Source: Streptosporangium sandarakinum
Lineage (GTDB): Bacteria > Actinomycetota > Actinomycetes > Streptosporangiales > Streptosporangiaceae
Reading direction: 5' to 3'
Length of the DNA: 64,000 nt
NCBI RefSeq assembly: GCF_013409935.1
Contig: NZ_JACCCO010000001.1
Location: 1,426,001-1,490,000 of the forward strand
Shown: positions 7,582 to 25,212 of the stretch, one piece after another
Layout: the number at the start of each line of letters is the position of its first letter
Position numbering within the stretch: position 1 is the first letter of the stretch
Made by a program: the position numbers and the translations under genes
Notes under the pieces: model-generated
What the model was told of the DNA's origin: nothing
Seen by the model: only the letters and a program-made list of their open reading frames with translations
Database searches by the model: none

Positions 7582-8376
7582 ATGTCCAAGCACTACCTCA
7601 TGTGCCGGCCCGACCATTTCGCGGTGGAGTACGCGATCAACCCGTGGATGCACCCGGAGGCGGGCGCCGACCGGGACCGGGCGATCCTGCAGTGGGAGAC
7701 CCTCCGGAAGGTCTACCTCGAACTCGGGCACGAGGTCAGCCTGATCGAGCCGATCGAGGGCCTGCCCGACATGGTGTTCGCGGCCAACGGCGCGCTGGTC
7801 GTCCGCGGCCGGGTGTACGGCGCGCGGTTCACCTACCCGCAGCGCGCCGCCGAGGGGCCCGCCTACCTGAACTGGTTCACCTCCAACGGCTACGAGCGGG
7901 TGTGCGAGCCGGCCTTCACCAACGAGGGCGAGGGCGACTTCCTCACGCTCGACGACGTGATCCTGGCCGGGACCGGTTTCCGCACCGACATCACCGCGCA
8001 CAAGGAGGCCCAGGAGTTCCTCGGCCTGCCGGTGGTGACGCTGCAGCTCGTGGACCCGCGCTTCTACCACCTGGACACCGCGCTTTTCCCGCTAAACGGA
8101 CATAACGTGGCATACTTCCCAGGGGCCTTCTCGGCGGGCAGCCAGGAGGTGCTCCGCACCATGTTCCCCGAGGCCGTCATCGCCACCGAGGACGACGCGA
8201 CCGTCCTGGGGCTCAACGCGGTCAGCGACGGGACCAACGTAGTGATCAATACGGAGGCGGCCGACCTCCAACTGGAGCTCAAGCGCCGCGGCTTCGAGGT
8301 CGTACCCGTCGACCTGTCGGAGCTGCGCAAGGCGGGCGGCGGACCCAAGTGCTGCACGCTGGAGATCCGGGGATGA
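7582..8376 (+). CDS. ddaH: dimethylarginine dimethylaminohydrolase / amidinotransferase-fold hydrolase
   Basis: A 264-residue enzyme of the guanidino-modifying (pentein) fold, expected to hydrolyse N-methylated arginine or arginine to citrulline. The catalytic set is visible: the acidic NEGEGDF motif near residue 114-120, the His in FYHLDTALF near 162, and the nucleophile Cys in GGPKCCTLEIR at the C-terminus (about 256-257). ATG 7582 begins MSKHYLMCRPDHF. It is followed 57 nt later by ornithine aminotransferase and preceded by an Lrp regulator, pointing to catabolism of arginine derivatives. The exact substrate (methylarginine or arginine) cannot be read from sequence. Confidence 0.85.
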   Translation: MSKHYLMCRPDHFAVEYAINPWMHPEAGADRDRAILQWETLRKVYLELGHEVSLIEPIEGLPDMVFAANGALVVRGRVYGARFTYPQRAAEGPAYLNWFTSNGYERVCEPAFTNEGEGDFLTLDDVILAGTGFRTDITAHKEAQEFLGLPVVTLQLVDPRFYHLDTALFPLNGHNVAYFPGAFSAGSQEVLRTMFPEAVIATEDDATVLGLNAVSDGTNVVINTEAADLQLELKRRGFEVVPVDLSELRKAGGGPKCCTLEIRG

Positions 8377-8433
8377 ACACAGGCAGGACGGCCTGACAGC
8401 AAGGAACCGCACCAGAGGAACGGCGAACATCGG

Positions 8434-9654
8434 ATGACCAGCACCAACGAGTTCATCGAACTCAGCGAGCGCCGCAGCGCGCACAACTACCACCCGCTCC
8501 CGATCGTGATCCACGAGGCGCAGGGCGCCTGGGTGACCGACGTGGAGGGCAAGCGGTTCCTGGACTGCCTGTCCGGCTACTCCTCGCTGAACTTCGGCCA
8601 CGGGAATCCGAAGATCATCGCAGCGGCCCAGGAGCAGCTGTCCAGGCTCACCCTCACCAGCCGCGCGTTCTTCCACGACCAGTTCGCCGCCTTCGCGGCC
8701 GGGCTGGGCGACCTCACCGGCAAGGACATGGTCCTGCCGATGAACACCGGCGCCGAGGCCGTGGAGACCGCGATCAAGGTGGCCCGCAAGTGGGGTTACG
8801 AGGTCAAGGGCGTGACGCAGGACCGGGCCAACATCATCGTGATGGAGGACAACTTCCACGGCCGCACCACCACGATCGTCGGTTTCTCCACCGACCCCGA
8901 CGCGCGCGGCGGTTTCGGCCCCTACACGCCGGGCTTCAGGATCGTGAAGTACGGCTCGGTCGAGGCGATCCGCGAGGCGATCGACGAGGACACCGTCGCC
9001 GTGCTGCTGGAGCCCATCCAGGGCGAGGCCGGCGTGCTGGTCCCGCCGGACGGCTACCTCACCCAGGTGCGGGAGCTGTGCACCGAGCGGAACATCCTGA
9101 TGATCGCCGACGAGATCCAGTCCGGCCTCGGCCGCACCGGCGACACCTTCGCCTGCGACCACGAGGGCGTCGTCCCGGACGTCTTCGTGCTGGGCAAGGC
9201 CCTGGGCGGCGGCGTCGTCCCCGTCTCGGCGATCGCCGCCGACGAGGACGTGCTCGGCGTGATCAGGCCGGGCCAGCACGGGTCCACCTTCGGCGGCAAC
9301 CCGCTGGCCTGCGCGGTGGCGAACGCCGTCATCGAGATGCTCGGCACCGGCGAGTACCAGGCGCGGGCCAGGGAGCTCGGCGCGGTCATGCACGAGCGGC
9401 TGCGGACGCTCATCGGCCACGGCGTGGTGGCCGTGCGCGGCCGCGGCCTGTGGGCGGGCGTGGACGTCGACCCGTCCGTGGCGACGGGCCGCGAGGTCTC
9501 CGAGGCGCTGATGAGCCGCGGCGTCCTCGCCAAGGACACCCACGGCTCGACCATCCGGCTCGCCCCGCCGATCGTCGTCTCCGAGGAGGACCTCCTCTGG
9601 GCCGTCGACCAGCTCGCCGACGCCATCAGGGAGCTGCGGGAGCGCACCGCCTGA
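8434..9654 (+). CDS. rocD: ornithine aminotransferase
   Basis: A 406-residue class III PLP aminotransferase converting ornithine plus 2-oxoglutarate to glutamate semialdehyde and glutamate. Landmarks are NYHPLPIVIHEAQGAWVTD at the N-terminus, MNTGAEAVETAIK, the PLP-contacting ADEIQSGLGRTG, and the Schiff-base Lys in VFVLGKALGGG (around residue 256). GTG/ATG choice is clear at 8434, with AGAGGAA upstream. It is the second gene of the ddaH-rocD unit, giving arginine derivative to citrulline/ornithine to glutamate. Confidence 0.93.
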   Translation: MTSTNEFIELSERRSAHNYHPLPIVIHEAQGAWVTDVEGKRFLDCLSGYSSLNFGHGNPKIIAAAQEQLSRLTLTSRAFFHDQFAAFAAGLGDLTGKDMVLPMNTGAEAVETAIKVARKWGYEVKGVTQDRANIIVMEDNFHGRTTTIVGFSTDPDARGGFGPYTPGFRIVKYGSVEAIREAIDEDTVAVLLEPIQGEAGVLVPPDGYLTQVRELCTERNILMIADEIQSGLGRTGDTFACDHEGVVPDVFVLGKALGGGVVPVSAIAADEDVLGVIRPGQHGSTFGGNPLACAVANAVIEMLGTGEYQARARELGAVMHERLRTLIGHGVVAVRGRGLWAGVDVDPSVATGREVSEALMSRGVLAKDTHGSTIRLAPPIVVSEEDLLWAVDQLADAIRELRERTA

Positions 9655-19759: not shown

Positions 19760-20314
19760 GTGGAGTATTTCGTGTACGGCCGCGACCGCCCCGGCATGTT
19801 CGGGCTCAAGGTGCGCCTGAGCGAGGACCACTGGTCCTTCATGGACGGGTACGCCGAGCGGCTGGTCGCCCGCGGCCCCACGATGACCGGCCACGATGAT
19901 GAGGCCGAGCCGACGGGCAGCCTGCACATCGTCGATCTTCCGGACACCGAAGCCGCCCGCACGTTCGCCTACGAGGAGCCGTACCACCGGGCCGGCATCT
20001 TCGAGTCGGTGCAGCTGTGCCGCTTCCGCAACGTCCTGGGCCGCACCATGTGGGAATTCACCGAGGCCGTGGACGGCTACGGACGATTCCTGGTGATCGC
20101 CATGGGCGGGTCCGCCCCCGCGCCGGCCACGTCGAAACACCTGATCGTGTACGGCGAACTGCTCTCCCTCAACGGTGAGACACGCCTCGGCCGGGCGGCC
20201 CTGGTGGAGGCGCCGGACCGCGAGGCCGCCGCAGCGCTGCTGCCGTCCAGCGGTGACGACCGTACGGAGGTCCACCCCTGGCGCTTCGGCGGCAGACCCG
20301 CCCAGGGCCCCTAG
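19760..20314 (+). CDS. YciI-like (dimeric alpha-beta barrel) protein
   Basis: A 184-residue protein from GTG 19760 (MEYFVYGRDRPGM). The first 90 residues match YciI-type ferredoxin-fold proteins (SFMDGYAERLVARGPTM, SLHIVDLPDTEAARTFAYEEPY). A second half repeats the pattern more weakly (HLIVYGELLSLNGE, EAPDREAAAALLP). The start is set by TAGGCT 8 nt upstream, suggesting a leaderless mRNA. The stop TAG is part of a CTAG where an IS5-family end begins, so the original stop and its context were reused rather than broken. Function is unknown. Confidence 0.75.
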   Translation: MEYFVYGRDRPGMFGLKVRLSEDHWSFMDGYAERLVARGPTMTGHDDEAEPTGSLHIVDLPDTEAARTFAYEEPYHRAGIFESVQLCRFRNVLGRTMWEFTEAVDGYGRFLVIAMGGSAPAPATSKHLIVYGELLSLNGETRLGRAALVEAPDREAAAALLPSSGDDRTEVHPWRFGGRPAQGP

Positions 20315-20545
20315 GCCGTGTTTCATAAGGCGCTGAGCCACTGGTTGATCGCAGCGATGACGACGACGGCTTCGTAGCGTACGGCGAGCTTGTCGTAACG
20401 GGTTGCCATGCCGCGGCCGCCTTTGAGCAGGTTGATGCCGCATTCCATGGCGTGGCGCAGCCGGTAGAGCGCGGGGTCGAAGGCGAGTGAGCGGCCTCCC
20501 TCCGACCCCTCTTGGCCGACCGCCGCCGTCGAGTCATCGTTCATG
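20314..20545 (-). mobile_element. IS5-family remnant, C-terminal transposase end
   Basis: The frame ending at 20323 reads FDPALYRLRHAMECGINLLK and ATRYDKLAVRYEAVVVIAAINQWL, the last about 60 residues of an IS5-family DDE transposase including the catalytic Glu region (here MECGIN). The upstream two thirds are gone. The terminal inverted-repeat sequence GGCCGTGTTTCATAA runs from 20314 and is preceded by CTA, giving the CTAG target seen for the intact element at 22514. Confidence 0.82.
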
Positions 20546-20618
20546 GTGCCGCGGCTCGGCCCCGGCCTCGCCCGCACTCAGCTCCACTGACGACCGTTCC
20601 GATCCTCCTCCGGCGCCG

Positions 20619-21206
20619 TCACCGGGAGTCGGTTGCGGAGCGCATCCCGTCGATGCCGAAGGCCAACAGGCGCTCGCCCTGTGCGGGCGATGTCTGTTCC
20701 CCGACCCAGGAGACCGAGTTGATCAGGGCGTAAAGGTCTGAGGCGGTGACATCGGCGCGCATGCTTCCGGCGGCCTGCGCACGGTTGAGGAGCTGTTCGC
20801 CGGCGGTGAGCACCGCTTGGCAGGCGGCATGCAGGTGCGAGCTCTCGTCCTCGATGCTGCGCATCAGCGAGGTCACCAGCCCCCGATAGACCGTGGTGTG
20901 CGCCATGGCCGCGCGCGCCCAGATGAGCAACGCCTCGTCCGCGGACGGGTGATCGAGGAGATCGCGGGCCTTGTCGGACAACGCTTGCATGCGGTCGCGC
21001 AGCAACGCCTCCAGCAGCGCCTGCCTGGTGGGGAAATGGCTGTAAAGGGTTCCGTTCGCCACGCCGGCGCGCCGGGCGATCTCCTCCAGCGAGGCTTCAA
21101 CGCCATGTTCAGCGAAGATCGTGGCCGCTTCAGCCAGCAACCGTTCGTAGTTGCGGCGCGCGTCAGCGCGCATCCTGCGCCGCGGCGCAGGATCGACGGT
21201 CGTCAT
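20619..21206 (-). CDS. TetR-family transcriptional repressor
   Basis: A 195-residue regulator with helix-turn-helix ASLEEIARRAGVANGTLYSHFPTRQALLEAL (about residues 36-66). ATG 21206 is preferred to the longer frame because GGGAG lies about 7 nt upstream. It is divergent from the NmrA-type oxidoreductase, with a perfect TTGAGAC/GTCTCAA palindrome between them. That arrangement is typical for a repressor of an adjacent NAD(P)-binding reductase. Confidence 0.92.
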   Translation of the reverse strand: MTTVDPAPRRRMRADARRNYERLLAEAATIFAEHGVEASLEEIARRAGVANGTLYSHFPTRQALLEALLRDRMQALSDKARDLLDHPSADEALLIWARAAMAHTTVYRGLVTSLMRSIEDESSHLHAACQAVLTAGEQLLNRAQAAGSMRADVTASDLYALINSVSWVGEQTSPAQGERLLAFGIDGMRSATDSR

Positions 21207-21227
21207 AAGCGCTCCCGGATTGCCAAG

Positions 21228-21265
21228 TTGAGACTGTCTCAATATATTTCTTGAGACAGCCTCAG
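21228..21265. promoter_or_regulatory. TetR operator pair, TTGAGAC half-sites
   Basis: TTGAGACTGTCTCAA (21228-21242) is a perfect palindrome around a central T. TTGAGACAGCCTCAG (21251-21265) is a second, imperfect copy 23 bp on. Both lie between the divergent TetR and NmrA-type genes. Confidence 0.82.
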
Positions 21266-21292
21266 TTTACTACCTCGCGAAAGGCCCCTTCG

Positions 21293-22198
21293 GTGAACAC
21301 TGCCGGCAACCCCATCCTCGTGACCGGTGCGACCGGACGCCAAGGCGGTGCCACCGCCGCCCGTCTCCTGGCCGCAGGCCGGCCGGTACGTGCCCTCGTC
21401 CGCGACCCGGACTCCCCAGCCGCCCGGACGCTGAGAGCCCAAGGCGCCGAGCTGCACACCGGGAACCTCGACGATCCCGGCTCGCTCGCGGCGGCCGCCG
21501 CCGGCGTCCACGGCATCTTCGCGGTCACGCCTGACGACGATGACGTCGAACGCGAGATCCGCCGCGGCCGTGATCTCGCCGACGTCGCGGCGGCAGCCGG
21601 CGTCTCCCACTTCGTGTTCGCCTCGGTCGGCGGGGCCGACCGGGGCACCGGCATCCCCTACTGGGAGAGCAAATGGCAGATCGAGCAGCACATACGCGCG
21701 CTCGGCCTGCCCGCGACGATCCTGCGTCCGGTCCGCTTCATGGAGAACCACACCATTCCCGGCCTGCCTCTCGGCGGCATCGTCGACGGAGAGCTCAGGC
21801 ACCTGTTCGACCCGGAGACACCGGTGCAGCTCATCGCCGCCACCGACATCGGCGCCCTGGCCTGCCTCGCCTTCACTCGCCCGCAGGAGTACCTCGGACA
21901 GGCGATCGAGATCGCCGGCGACGAACTGACCCCCAACCGGACGGTGGAACTCATCAGCCGCAGCCTCGGACGCGAGATCACCTACCGGCAGGTCTCCATC
22001 GACGGCACCGGACTGGGCCCGGAGACGCAGCGCGCCTTCACGGACGAGCGCGGTCTGTGGCGAGCCGACATCGCGGCGCTGCGCGAACGCCACCCCGGCC
22101 TGCTGGACTTCCAGACCTGGCTCGAGCACGGCGGAACCGAACAGATCCGAGCCCTGTTCCAGGACTCACCAGGCCGTGTTTCGAAAGATCATGCGTGA
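21293..22198 (+). CDS. NmrA-family NAD(P)-binding protein
   Basis: A 301-residue SDR-like protein with dinucleotide motif LVTGATGRQGGATAARLLAAG, GVSHFVFASVGGAD in the active-site strand and RFMENHTIPGLPLGG. GTG 21293 is chosen, with AAAGG about 9 nt upstream. The last eight residues (GRVSKDHA) are encoded by sequence that looks like an IS end (GGCCGTGTTTCGAAAG from 22172), so the native C-terminus was probably slightly different. It is likely induced when the divergent TetR releases the TTGAGAC operators; the substrate is unknown. Confidence 0.85.
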   Translation: MNTAGNPILVTGATGRQGGATAARLLAAGRPVRALVRDPDSPAARTLRAQGAELHTGNLDDPGSLAAAAAGVHGIFAVTPDDDDVEREIRRGRDLADVAAAAGVSHFVFASVGGADRGTGIPYWESKWQIEQHIRALGLPATILRPVRFMENHTIPGLPLGGIVDGELRHLFDPETPVQLIAATDIGALACLAFTRPQEYLGQAIEIAGDELTPNRTVELISRSLGREITYRQVSIDGTGLGPETQRAFTDERGLWRADIAALRERHPGLLDFQTWLEHGGTEQIRALFQDSPGRVSKDHA

Positions 22199-22277
22199 GG
22201 CGTATCAGTGATCGTTGAACGAAGAGGTCTCCGGTAGTCGGTTCAACTACCAAGAAGAATGAAATACCGGAGACCTC
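22172..22277. mobile_element. probable left-end remnant of another IS
   Basis: GGCCGTGTTTCGAAAG at 22172 resembles the IS end at 20314 (GGCCGTGTTTCATAA). It is followed by a 13-bp inverted repeat GAGGTCTCCGGTA/TACCGGAGACCTC (22224-22236 with 22265-22277). No transposase frame is recognisable. The stretch 22199-22513 otherwise holds no gene that I can support. Confidence 0.45.
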
Positions 22278-22331
22278 GCGGCCAGCGTGGTGGTGACGAG
22301 GGAGACCGCCGGCCCCTTTCGCGGAGACATG

Positions 22332-22372
22332 AAAAAGCCCCCGACGAGGGTGGGACGGGTCTCGTCGGGGGC
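22332..22372 (-). terminator. Rho-independent terminator on the minus strand
   Basis: The 12-bp perfect stem GCCCCCGACGAG/CTCGTCGGGGGC (22337-22348 with 22361-22372) is followed on the minus strand by five U. The only minus-strand gene that could use it is the HATPase gene at 23450-23920, from which it is now separated by the IS at 22514-23450. Confidence 0.75.
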
Positions 22373-22513
22373 GGGTCCGGCCGGCCACGGGGGAAGGCTC
22401 GGGCCGGACGTCCGGTGGCGGCCTCGCCTCTCACCCCTCCACGAAAAGGCGCGGCCGCCCGGCTTCCCGATCGGCGGGTACGCGATCGATCGGGAAATCT
22501 CGTCCGTCTCCTA

Positions 22514-23450
22514 AGGCGTGTCTGATAAATGATCTCGGTGGTGCGGTTAGATGATTCCTCGTGGTGCGACGAGGTGAGCTGACTGACAAGGCCTGGCAGC
22601 GGATCGAGCCCCTGCTGCCCGCCAAGGATGGCAGGGGACGGCCCTGGCGGGATCACCGCGCGGTCATCAACGGGATCTTGTGGAGGTTGCGGACCGGAGC
22701 GCCCTGGCGCGACGTACCGGAGCGCTACGGTCCCTGGCAGACCTGCTACGAGCGGTTCAAACGCTGGGAGGAAGACGGCACCTGGACCCGCCTGCTGGAG
22801 GAGATGCAGGTCAAAGACGACTCCCTCGGTGCGGTGGAGCTGGTCGTCAGCGTCGACTCCACCATCGCCCGAGCCCACCAGCACGCTGCCGGCGCCCGAA
22901 AAAGGGGGACGGCGGAGGGACGATCGACGCGAAAGCCTCCCAAAGACGACAAGCCCTCGGCCGATCCCGGGGCGGGCTGACCACCAAGCTCCATCTGATC
23001 ACCGAAGCCCGTGGCCTGCCGCTTGCCCTGCACCTGACCGGCGGCAACATCAACGACTGCACCGCCTTCGAAGCGGTGATGGGCACCTTCCGGCTGCGCC
23101 GTCGCATCGGCCGTCCCCGTACCCGGCCGGACCGGCTGGTGGCGGATAAGGGCTACTCCTTTCGGAAGATCCGCCTGCATCTGCGGCGGCGCGGCATCGG
23201 CGCGGTCATCCCTGAGCGGTCCGATCAGATCGCCGCCCGCAAGCGCAAGGGCAGCCGCGGAGGCCGCCCGCCCGCCTTCGATGCCGCGGCCTACAAGGGG
23301 CGTAACGTGGTGGAGCGGTGCTTTGCCAAGCTCAAGCAGTGGCGAGCCGTCGCCACCCGCTACGACAAGCTCGCCGGCCGCTACCTCGCGGGCGTCACCA
23401 TCGCTTCCCTGCTGCTCTGGCTCCGCCACGCCGAATTATCAGACACGCCT
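22514..23450 (+). mobile_element. complete IS5-family (IS427-type) insertion sequence, 937 bp
   Basis: The terminal inverted repeats AGGCGTGTCTGATAA (22514-22528) and TTATCAGACACGCCT (23436-23450) match over all 15 bases. TA is duplicated at both ends (22512-22513 and 23451-23452), so the original target was C-TA-G. Two overlapping transposase frames linked by a -1 shift, and the TA duplication, are characteristic of the IS427 group. The right target half supplies the transposase stop codon. Confidence 0.92.
22561..22980 (+). CDS. IS5-family transposase, first frame (OrfA)
   Basis: A 139-codon frame starting GTG 22561, carrying the N-terminal transposase region (LTDKAWQRIEPLLP, RDHRAVINGILWRLRTGAPWRDVP) and the first catalytic Asp in VVSVDSTIARAHQHAAGA. 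Beyond about residue 113 the frame is out of register. At 22899-22908 the sequence A5G5 allows a -1 shift into the second frame, so the active enzyme should be an OrfA-OrfB fusion. The short frame alone lacks the other catalytic residues. Confidence 0.85.
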   Translation: MVRRGELTDKAWQRIEPLLPAKDGRGRPWRDHRAVINGILWRLRTGAPWRDVPERYGPWQTCYERFKRWEEDGTWTRLLEEMQVKDDSLGAVELVVSVDSTIARAHQHAAGARKRGTAEGRSTRKPPKDDKPSADPGAG

Positions 23451-23453
23451 TAG
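22894..23453 (+). CDS. IS5-family transposase, second frame (OrfB), reached by -1 frameshift
   Basis: This frame has no start of its own. It continues from KKGDGGGTIDAKAS after the A5G5 slip site and carries the second Asp in DRLVADKGYSF and the Glu in GRNVVERCFAKLKQWRAVATRYDKL, completing the DDE triad. The stop TAG (23451-23453) lies outside the element: TA comes from the target duplication and G from the CTAG target. The product would be a transposase of about 297 residues, normal for IS427-type elements. Confidence 0.85.
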
Positions 23454-23920
23454 CCGGATCGCCCGGAGGTCGGCTCGGAGACGGACAGGTTCTTCGGATC
23501 CTCCGAGTGGGGTACGGCCCGGATGGCGCACCAGACCGTACGGCCCAGGCCGGGGCCGAGCTCGCGCGCACCCCACTCCAGGGAGAGCTCGCGGATGATC
23601 AGTAGTCCTCGACCGTCCTCCGCGTACGGCTCCCTGCGGACGTGGGGACCGGAGAACAGCGACCCCGGGTCGTTGACCTCGATGTAGACGACCTCCCCGG
23701 TGGCGCTGAGGGTGAGGCCGATGAAATCACCGGGGCCCGAGTCGGAATGCCGGATCGCGTTGGTCACCAGCTCCGACGCCGCGAGCACGACGTCGTCGAC
23801 CGCCGGATGATCGTCACCGAGCCATCCGCGTACCTCGGAACGGGCACGTGAGACGGACTCGTGGACGCCCGGCAGACCGGTCCGGCCGAGAACCTTCGGT
23901 TCCGTGCTCGGTGCTTTCAT
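23450..23920 (-). CDS. HATPase-domain regulator (anti-sigma-like, AbaA-type)
   Basis: A 156-residue GHKL ATP-binding protein related to SpoIIAB/RsbW-like kinases. The N-box is VLAASELVTNAIRHSDSG, the G1 region is IEVNDPGSLF and the G2 region DGRGLLIIRELSLEWGA. It is divergent from an XRE/DUF5753 gene followed by a DUF397 gene, a trio often found together in sporulating actinomycetes as regulators of development or antibiotic production. The stop codon is TAA made of the TA target duplication plus the first base of the IS; before insertion it would have been TAG. The protein sequence is therefore intact. Confidence 0.88.
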   Translation of the reverse strand: MKAPSTEPKVLGRTGLPGVHESVSRARSEVRGWLGDDHPAVDDVVLAASELVTNAIRHSDSGPGDFIGLTLSATGEVVYIEVNDPGSLFSGPHVRREPYAEDGRGLLIIRELSLEWGARELGPGLGRTVWCAIRAVPHSEDPKNLSVSEPTSGRSG

Positions 23921-24065
23921 GACTTCACCCCCTTGAAGGGTTTCTCCTCGTTCAGCCTTATGAGCATCTCGAATCTCAGCTACATTCGGTAGCCGATTGA
24001 CTCCTTAGAGTCATGAACAGTTGCGCCGGAAGGCCGGTTGAAGCCGCCGTCCCCCGGGAGGCAAC

Positions 24066-24893
24066 ATGCCGAAAGAGATGGAGCTCTGCCCCGCCGACTC
24101 GCCGACCGCCCTATTCGGTTTCGAGCTGCGCCGGCATCGCAAGGCTCGTGGATGGTCGCAGATCAAGCTGTCGAAGGCGGTGCCGTACTCGGTCGGCACG
24201 ATCAGCATGATCGAGACCGCGAAGCGGTCACCGTCCGAGGAGTTCGCGCGCTACTGCGACGAGGCCCTGGAGGCGGAGGGCGCCCTGATGCGGCTCTGGC
24301 CGATGGTCAGCCACGCCGCGGCCCCGCCGTGGTTCCGGCCATGGCTCGACGTGGAGGCCACTGCGGAGGCGATCCGTACCTGGGAGCCGCTGATCGTCCC
24401 TGGGCTACTCCAGACCGAGGACTACGCCAGAGCCATTCTGAGTGGCGAAATCGGTGTGACACCCGAACAGGTCGAGCAGCAGGTGACCGCGCGAATGGAG
24501 CGCCAATCCATCCTCAAACGCTCCAAGCCTCCCTTGTTCTGGGTGGTCATCGACGAAGCAGTCCTCCACCGGCCCATCGGAAGCCCTGCCGTTATGACGG
24601 CGCAGATCTCCTATCTGGTCGAAGCCGCCCAGACACCTCGGACCACCGTTCAGGTGCTGCCACTCAACGCCTACTCCACGACCGGCCTGGCCGGAGGGTT
24701 CGCCATCGCGCAGACCCAGGGGGTGTTCGATACGGCATACGCCGAATCAGCCGGCGTGATGAGCCGGGTAACGGATCGCCCGGAAGATGTGAGCGTTCTA
24801 GCATACAGATACGAAGGAATCCGCTCCCAAGCACTACCTCAGCGCGATTCTCTAGAGTTGATCAAGGAGACGCTGCAACGATGGACGAGCTGA
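24066..24893 (+). CDS. XRE-family regulator with DUF5753 domain (WhiJ-like)
   Basis: A 275-residue regulator. The N-terminal helix-turn-helix is LRRHRKARGWSQIKLSKAVPYSVGTISMIE (about residues 20-50). The rest is the DUF5753 ligand domain with WEPLIVPGLLQTEDYARAIL, ERQSILKR and TVQVLPL. ATG 24066 follows GGGAGG by 6 nt. It overlaps the DUF397 gene by 13 nt and is divergent from the HATPase gene. In the known WhiJ/BldB-type clusters the XRE and DUF397 proteins act as a pair, sometimes toxin-antitoxin-like; that role here is inference. Confidence 0.9.
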   Translation: MPKEMELCPADSPTALFGFELRRHRKARGWSQIKLSKAVPYSVGTISMIETAKRSPSEEFARYCDEALEAEGALMRLWPMVSHAAAPPWFRPWLDVEATAEAIRTWEPLIVPGLLQTEDYARAILSGEIGVTPEQVEQQVTARMERQSILKRSKPPLFWVVIDEAVLHRPIGSPAVMTAQISYLVEAAQTPRTTVQVLPLNAYSTTGLAGGFAIAQTQGVFDTAYAESAGVMSRVTDRPEDVSVLAYRYEGIRSQALPQRDSLELIKETLQRWTS

Positions 24894-25093
24894 CCGGAGA
24901 ACTCAATGGCGCCGTCTGGCGCAAGTCCAGCCTGTCGGGGCCTGACGGCGGAAACTGCGTGGAGGTGGCGAAGCTGTCCGGGGACCGCAGGGGCGTCCGC
25001 GACAGCAAGAACCTGTCCGGTCCCGCACTGGTTCTCACCCCCGGCGCATGGGCTGATTTCCTCGCGACGCTGAAGAACGGCGAATTCGACTAG
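24881..25093 (+). CDS. DUF397 small protein
   Basis: A 70-residue protein with the family pattern AVWRKSSLSGPDGGNCVEVAKL and VRDSKNLSGPALVLTPGAWADFL. ATG 24881 is preceded by AAGGAGA inside the end of the XRE gene, with which it overlaps by 13 nt. DUF397 proteins accompany DUF5753 regulators throughout actinobacteria and probably bind them; no enzymatic function is known. Confidence 0.92.
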   Translation: MDELTGELNGAVWRKSSLSGPDGGNCVEVAKLSGDRRGVRDSKNLSGPALVLTPGAWADFLATLKNGEFD

Positions 25094-25212
25094 TCGCCGA
25101 ATGCGAACACCGGAAAGGCGCCCGGCTCCGTGAGGCCATTTCATCTTGACGACACAGGTCGTAGGGCCGCTGCGGATCCCGGGCCGGAAAGCTGCTGCCG
25201 TATCGTGCCTGG

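Follow-up and report, generated by a model that had tools for sequence, protein, structure and literature searches.

Does an insertion sequence (IS) that lands on a stop codon and leaves the protein intact seek out such codons, or does it follow a target that stop codons happen to contain? The question is raised by a 64,000-nucleotide stretch of Streptosporangium sandarakinum DNA (contig NZ_JACCCO010000001.1, positions 1,426,001 to 1,490,000; hereafter the window), in which an IS5-family element lies within the stop codon of a HATPase gene. The original prediction held that such elements target CTAG, settle on stop codons without harming genes, and so possess a built-in neutral niche. We consider it likely that the window IS belongs to IS427-group elements whose C/TA/G target tends to lie inside the wider context SNNCTAGNNS (S, G or C) and whose purine ends keep stops, with no need to recognize stop codons and no measurable avoidance of genes.

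The element, its target and the gene it meets are laid out as follows (window coordinates).

22514..23450, plus strand: complete insertion sequence of the IS5 family (IS427 group), 937 bp long, with perfect 15-bp terminal repeats and a TA duplication; missing from the sister genome at the same site; one of five near-identical genomic copies
22511..22513, no strand: left target, C (22511) and the first copy of the duplicated TA (22512-22513); an empty CTAG in the sister genome, G309
22514..22528, plus strand: left terminal inverted repeat, AGGCGTGTCTGATAA
22561..22980, plus strand: orfA, DUF4096 N-terminal part of an IS5-type transposase, 139 amino acids (Pfam PF13340, 1.7e-32)
22680..23453, plus strand: orfB frame (-1 to orfA), DDE transposase domain (Pfam PF01609, 2.4e-19), with a stop supplied by the target
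22899..22908, plus strand: A5G5 run inside the orfA/orfB overlap, candidate -1 frameshift site
23436..23450, minus strand: right terminal inverted repeat, TTATCAGACACGCCT; its outermost base, 23450 (minus-strand A), completes the HATPase stop TAA
23451..23453, no strand: right target, the second TA (23451-23452) and G (23453), reading TAG, the orfB stop
23450..23920, minus strand: HATPase_c_2 gene (Pfam, 1.7e-12), stop formerly TAG (in CTAG, as seen in G309), now TAA

The terminal repeats match at 15 of 15 positions, and at 18 of 18 if the palindromic target is counted. By Pfam, the transposase combines DUF4096 and DDE_Tnp_1 as in the IS5 family and its IS427 group; the length of 937 bp, with short terminal inverted repeats, lies within the 0.8-1.0 kb of that group; and the 2-bp TA duplication falls in YTAR (pyrimidine-T-A-purine), here CTAG, in all five copies in the genome and at the empty site. 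We base the IS427-group name on the 2-bp TA duplication and the layout of two open reading frames (ORFs). The registers of these ORFs and the A5G5 run are compatible with two overlapping frames joined by a -1 frameshift, and to judge from the frames orfA and orfB may be fused in this way, with A5G5 the likely site.

The state of the target before insertion is directly visible, not inferred. The sister genome G309, whose HATPase is 98% identical, has the uninterrupted site CCTCCTAGCCGG, a HATPase stop TAG and the identical C-terminus ...SGRSG, and aligns on either side of the window IS (21010-22513 at 97%, 23446-25123 at 89%) with the IS absent between; this natural empty site rules out the target site being an artefact. 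In the window the HATPase gene, read on the minus strand from 23920 down to 23450, closes with GGC TAA, whose final A is contributed by the outermost IS base, and orfB on the plus strand ends CCT TAG, in which TAG is TA plus the target G. The original prediction is thus borne out at this locus in all three of its particulars: TA is duplicated within CTAG around 22514-23450, the HATPase stop has passed from TAG to TAA with the protein unchanged, and TA plus G gives the transposase its stop at 23451-23453. HATPase homologues do vary in their C-terminal tails, and the gene might in principle have lost a tail through the insertion, with TAA following by chance; the IS-free sister genome, with the same protein end and TAG in CTAG, already refutes such a coincidence, to which we give next to no weight.

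The HATPase gene (23450-23920) adjoins an ORF that we take, by eye, to be an XRE-type regulator-like gene, and a small ORF with a CTAG at its own end (window 24066-25093 region). Trios of HATPase, regulator-like ORF and small ORF are frequent in actinobacteria.

The genome holds five full-length copies of the IS, of which four, the window copy among them, are identical and the fifth has one mismatch. G309 contains no match to the IS left-end pattern and none to the IS at E 1e-150. Because the five copies differ by at most one base and G309 is without an IS match, the window IS looks recent in its lineage. All five copies duplicate TA inside CTAG, with the window copy at a stop, three in called genes and one in an array resembling clustered regularly interspaced short palindromic repeats (CRISPR). 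The genes hit encode a Sigma70 region 2 protein and a large WD40-repeat protein, both Pfam-supported; the third is a lower-scoring 48-codon ORF. The array (L190, contig C4 1-15700 of the same genome, on a 151-kb contig) is long and has a 61-bp period with repeats like GGACCATCCCCGCGGGTGCGGGGCCGAC; the IS copy, at 7687-8623, sits at a repeat-spacer border, where the final base of a repeat and the opening bases of a spacer together make up its CTAG target. Beside this copy, roughly three repeat-spacer units are, by eye, duplicated as a block.

We then placed these five copies in a wider sample, drawn from 80 genome-contig loci, picked places among the listed PF13340 matches in 34 further genomes, family copies and a second replication set; some places were fetched by our own choice from the listed matches, and the counts describe a sample, not a total. 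From the 80 loci, eight of plant-pathogenic, or presumably plant-pathogenic, Streptomyces were left out before joining (L051, L077, L079, L080, L085, L086, L093, L096) and six more, without any inverted repeat, were dropped. The 215 candidates lost 119 (106 without clean ends, 7 duplicates, 4 with short flanks, 2 with N runs), and L252 was removed by hand for a mis-picked end. The second replication yielded 12 usable loci of 24 (4 were duplicates and 8 lacked clean ends), and the plasmid set 4 with clean ends, all intergenic, from 12 of 60 listed regions (3012 matching); a class-wide pattern search matched 8 of 394 genomes. In the end 111 related insertions had clean ends, and 88 of these lie in CTAG. 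Counting required clean TA..TA ends with YTAR and R..Y, a selection that favours intact elements, and it covers surviving insertions, not new ones. Genes were called on the joined empty sites, and CTAGs in the flanks of each insertion and in 400 kb of random regions from six host genomes (L287-L306) served as background.

Both the target and the ends proved well defined. Among 97 elements chosen by TA on both sides with outer and end bases left free (the second replication and plasmid sets excluded), the target was CTAG in 72, TTAG in 8, CTAA in 7 and TTAA in 4, that is, YTAR in 91; R..Y ends were present in 92. The other six targets (GTAC 5, ATAT 1) appear on inspection to be inner TA pairs picked by mistake. 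End bases were G..C in 85, A..T in 7 and other in 5, the last seemingly mis-picks. In this sample, then, YTAR with a strong preference for CTAG is the rule, as is an inward-read purine at each end. In 63 of the 111 elements the DDE frame was identified by a motif scan, which left 48 without an assigned frame; of the 63, 28 end on a target stop (TA plus a target base), 34 within the IS and 1 beyond.

CTAG is rare in these genomes and enriched at stops, as had been claimed. The window has 12 against 71 expected from dinucleotide shuffles, and the random regions have 107 against 1121 expected from base composition, about tenfold fewer. In the random regions C precedes 18 of 59 TAG stops, and the CTAGs divide into 18 stop, 49 intergenic and 39 genic sites (n=106), although the 341 called stops per 400 kb occupy less than 1% of positions.

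How often, then, do insertions fall on stops? Of the 88 CTAG insertions, 28 (32%) lie on stop codons, 35 between genes and 25 within them, or, as stop/intergenic/genic, 20/21/20 in the discovery set, 3/6/2 in the first replication, 5/4/3 in the second and 0/4/0 on plasmids; the 70 outside the most sampled genome divide into 24, 30 and 16. Stops make up 79 of 565 flank CTAGs, and 14-17% of background overall. Unmatched, the excess (23 of 73 targets, one of which was later taken out as a mis-picked end) is clear against flanks (p 0.0005) and weaker against random regions (p 0.03). Such figures are what one would expect if the transposase complex, through the state of transcription or translation near gene ends, or selection, concentrated copies at stops beyond any motif; so is the comparison restricted to non-genic sites, with an odds ratio (OR) of 2.7 (p 0.0017) relative to flanks and p 0.05 relative to random regions. 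Taken by itself, the first replication set did not reach an excess (3/12, p 0.39), and the plasmid set has no stop among its four targets. We regard such a true safe-site behaviour as unlikely, also in view of the matched comparisons below.

An excess could also arise as an artefact, either of gene calling or of setting IS-rich flanks against ordinary DNA. Gene calls depend on codon usage, decayed genes are possible near IS elements, and the excess is weaker against random regions (p 0.03, or 0.05 at a stricter gene score). Against flanks, however, the stricter score keeps the excess (19/73 versus 67/565, p 0.003), targets and flank background were called in the same joined sequences, the random-region shares given above are similar to those of the flanks, and among the stop genes are the window HATPase gene and, at double-stop sites, families with Pfam support. 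We consider an artefact improbable.

What distinguishes targets from background CTAGs is their surroundings. Compared position by position, targets stand out by a single strong feature, a preference for G or C three bases beyond CTAG on either side. The resulting motif, SNNCTAGNNS, is present at 73 of the 88 targets: at 51/61 in the discovery set against 154/348 flank CTAGs, at 22/27 in the later sets against 54/101 background sites (p 0.009), and alike outside (57/70) and within (16/18) the most sampled genome. Background CTAGs carry it in 60% of stop, 49% of genic and 39% of intergenic sites, and those of the random regions in 11/18, 23/39 and 16/49, respectively.

We compared each insertion with the CTAGs of its own flanks in a conditional logistic model (85 strata, 449 background sites). 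Without the motif, the stop OR is 2.05 (1.08-3.91) and the genic OR 1.13 (0.62-2.05). With G/C at +-3 included, which itself contributes 6.1 (3.2-11.7) per G/C, the stop OR falls to 1.30 (0.63-2.69) and the genic OR to 1.00 (0.53-1.89); with local GC added, the stop OR is 1.15 (0.53-2.47). Consistent with this, a motif-weighted simulation expected 23.9 stops where 26 were seen (p 0.29), as against 19.0 expected without weighting (p 0.02). In the matched model the stop excess that would favour a safe site is therefore not significant once the wider motif is taken into account, and the genic ORs reveal no depletion of insertions in genes, three of the five recent copies in the window's own genome lying inside called genes.

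Several observations weigh against explaining the excess by the motif. SNNCTAGNNS and the stop excess come from one and the same body of data; the motif is confirmed by the later sets, but their 8 stops among 27 targets are too few to separate motif from stop effect. It is present at only 3 of the 5 copies in the window's own genome. A pooled unmatched model keeps a stop OR of 1.99 with +-3 and genic terms, and of 1.67 when +-3 is joined by T at -1 and GC (log standard error about 0.30). Within SNNCTAGNNS sites, stops make up 20/61 targets against 58/307 (p 0.025; p 0.07 for non-genic sites only). The gene calls rest on our own codon-usage caller, and one genome supplied 18 of the 88 targets (4 stop, 5 intergenic, 9 genic). 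Finally, codon wobble at -3 was considered as the cause of the motif-rich stop CTAGs and rejected, because 60/81 background stop CTAGs have G/C on the gene side (-3) and just as many, 60/81, have it outside the gene (+3); a generally high GC near gene ends is a possible cause. The failure of the wobble idea slightly lowered our confidence in the motif-based explanation and took the codon-rhythm argument out of the case for strong stop safety. Because of the unmatched residue and the p of 0.025 within motif sites, a modest true stop preference beyond the motif may exist. It is doubtful that CTAG-targeting IS5 elements are stop-codon-safe in the strong sense of insertion or retention being favoured at stops beyond the CTAG motif.

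The motif-based explanation runs as follows. An IS5/IS427-group DDE transposon enters the TA of C/TA/G and doubles it; the wider target S-N-N-C-T-A-G-N-N-S and the terminal base, a purine at both ends when read inwards, are shown by the sample. A gene on either strand that ended in this CTAG loses neither its final sense codon nor a stop, because CTAG is palindromic and TA plus a purine is always TAA or TAG. In these GC-rich genomes, with CTAG depleted about tenfold, stops forming 14-17% of what remains and stop CTAGs meeting the wider motif more often, about one third of insertions come to lie neutrally at stop codons. The +-3 preference is presumably read by the transposase or through DNA shape, and the 27 other stop cases presumably arose as the window case did. 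We suggest that stop landings follow from target composition and stop-preserving terminal purines, with no need for special targeting.

In three of the 88 cases the CTAG was the overlapping stop of two convergent called genes, each of which keeps its protein and receives its own TAG. In two of the pairs a gene without a Pfam match faces a response regulator or an O-methyltransferase; in the third, a second called gene faces a phosphoribosyltransferase-domain gene. If strong safety were true, a palindromic target and purine ends that split even a shared convergent stop into two intact stops would amount to built-in silence.

The general claims of the original prediction fare less well than its reading of the locus. 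That elements of this kind settle on stop codons is not supported, 60 of the 88 CTAG insertions lying elsewhere and the excess losing significance in the matched model after G/C at +-3; nor is the sparing of genes, insertions within them being about as numerous as genic CTAGs predict. Of the built-in neutral niche there remain the enrichment of CTAG at stops, the preservation of the stop by the terminal purine and the share of 28/88 against 79/565, without any measurable avoidance of genes. The copy-by-copy count that had been proposed, set against the stop share of CTAGs, finds most copies outside stops and largely in proportion to CTAG occurrence. We have here a worked and quantified case of the frequency of silent insertion being set by the four bases of a target and by a property of a single base at the element's end: about one third of CTAG insertions in the sample spare the protein, although stop codons occupy less than 1% of positions. 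For IS5-family transposases, SNNCTAGNNS is a prediction open to test.

A second stop-codon example had been proposed in the window, at a YciI-like gene.

19763..20314, plus strand: YciI-domain gene (Pfam PF03795, 6.6e-15), TAG stop at 20312-20314, adjoining the IS remnant
20315..20499, minus strand: one-ended remnant that keeps the right end of a related IS and the C-terminal part of its transposase, 68% match at 20353-20499; also in G309

Positions 20353-20499 weakly match the window IS on the minus strand (68%, query 746-892), and the predicted junction is present, CTA followed by GGCCGTGTTTCATAAGG directly at the YciI-like stop TAG. G309 carries the remnant too, with CTA followed by AGTTCTG at the junction and TAA as the YciI stop. 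Because a single end is visible, no TA duplication can be demonstrated, and the earlier existence of the YciI stop is likewise not demonstrated; the YciI tail is longer in the more distant relative G306 and shorter in another, G301. Given the single end and the variable tail, the remnant is compatible with the stop-codon idea without demonstrating it. Nearby, an NmrA-like gene ends within AGGCCGTGTTTCGAAAG (window 22171-22198), which resembles the start of the remnant at 20313 (88% over 17 bases), and by this resemblance its last residues may be IS-derived.

The CTAG target is not shared by every IS5 relative, a generalization that we rejected on a sister family in Kibdelosporangium G694 (L207-L226). 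This family, the second high-copy IS there, carries GAGGGCATCTGATC at its ends, and its target duplication is TNA, which lies within CTNAG in 15 of the 18 copies located (20 were fetched, and the 3-bp flanks agree in 17). Three of the 18 lie at stops, against 19 stops among 392 background sites, and 12 within called genes. Two further subgroups look like TNA, judging from their ends. Separately, two Streptomyces relatives, L057 (the same place as L182) and L340, have in common an altered left end, CTATAGCCGGTCTGATAATTG, without the usual left border, and are possibly one inactive lineage that spread.

Among known systems, IS870 of Agrobacterium vitis, which Fournier and colleagues are said to have described in 1993 in J. 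Bacteriol., reportedly has a CTAG target that furnishes the stop of its transposase frame. The window IS is alike, by description and not by sequence, in that its transposase frame ends on TA plus a target base (TAG, 23451-23453). The IS870 case concerns the transposase stop, to which the present analysis adds the stop of the host gene and the share of insertions at stops.

The open PubMed Central literature, to which most subscription papers do not belong, yielded no measured share of insertions at host stop codons; the SNNCTAGNNS context was not found there either, no search having been aimed at it. The available text of PMC5009743, PMC3189936 and PMC2229807 adds nothing on host stops. To judge from the available text of two papers, the CTAG target, the rarity of CTAG and the target-supplied transposase stop are already known (PMC5493358, PMC2516522). 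In the IS481 family, ISLxc2 and ISLxx4 are described as having the transposase stop within the host insertion site NCTAGN; the target supplies the stop as it does here, in another IS family that duplicates NCTAGN, and the available text does not discuss the effect on the host gene (PMC2516522). The IS427-group elements of Paracoccus, of 0.83-0.87 kb, with mostly 2-bp duplications among those tabulated and with overlapping ORFs and a frameshift motif, resemble the window IS in duplication size and ORF layout and differ in their hosts (PMC3281130); the terms CTAG and stop codon are absent from the main text of that paper as available. IS5 of E. coli, as described in the available text, has a Py-T-A-Pu target, CTAG being the most frequent form (15 of the 24 listed) and noted there as under-represented; it thus shares the YTAR/CTAG target of the window IS, but duplicates the tetranucleotide where the window IS duplicates 2 bp, TA (PMC5493358).

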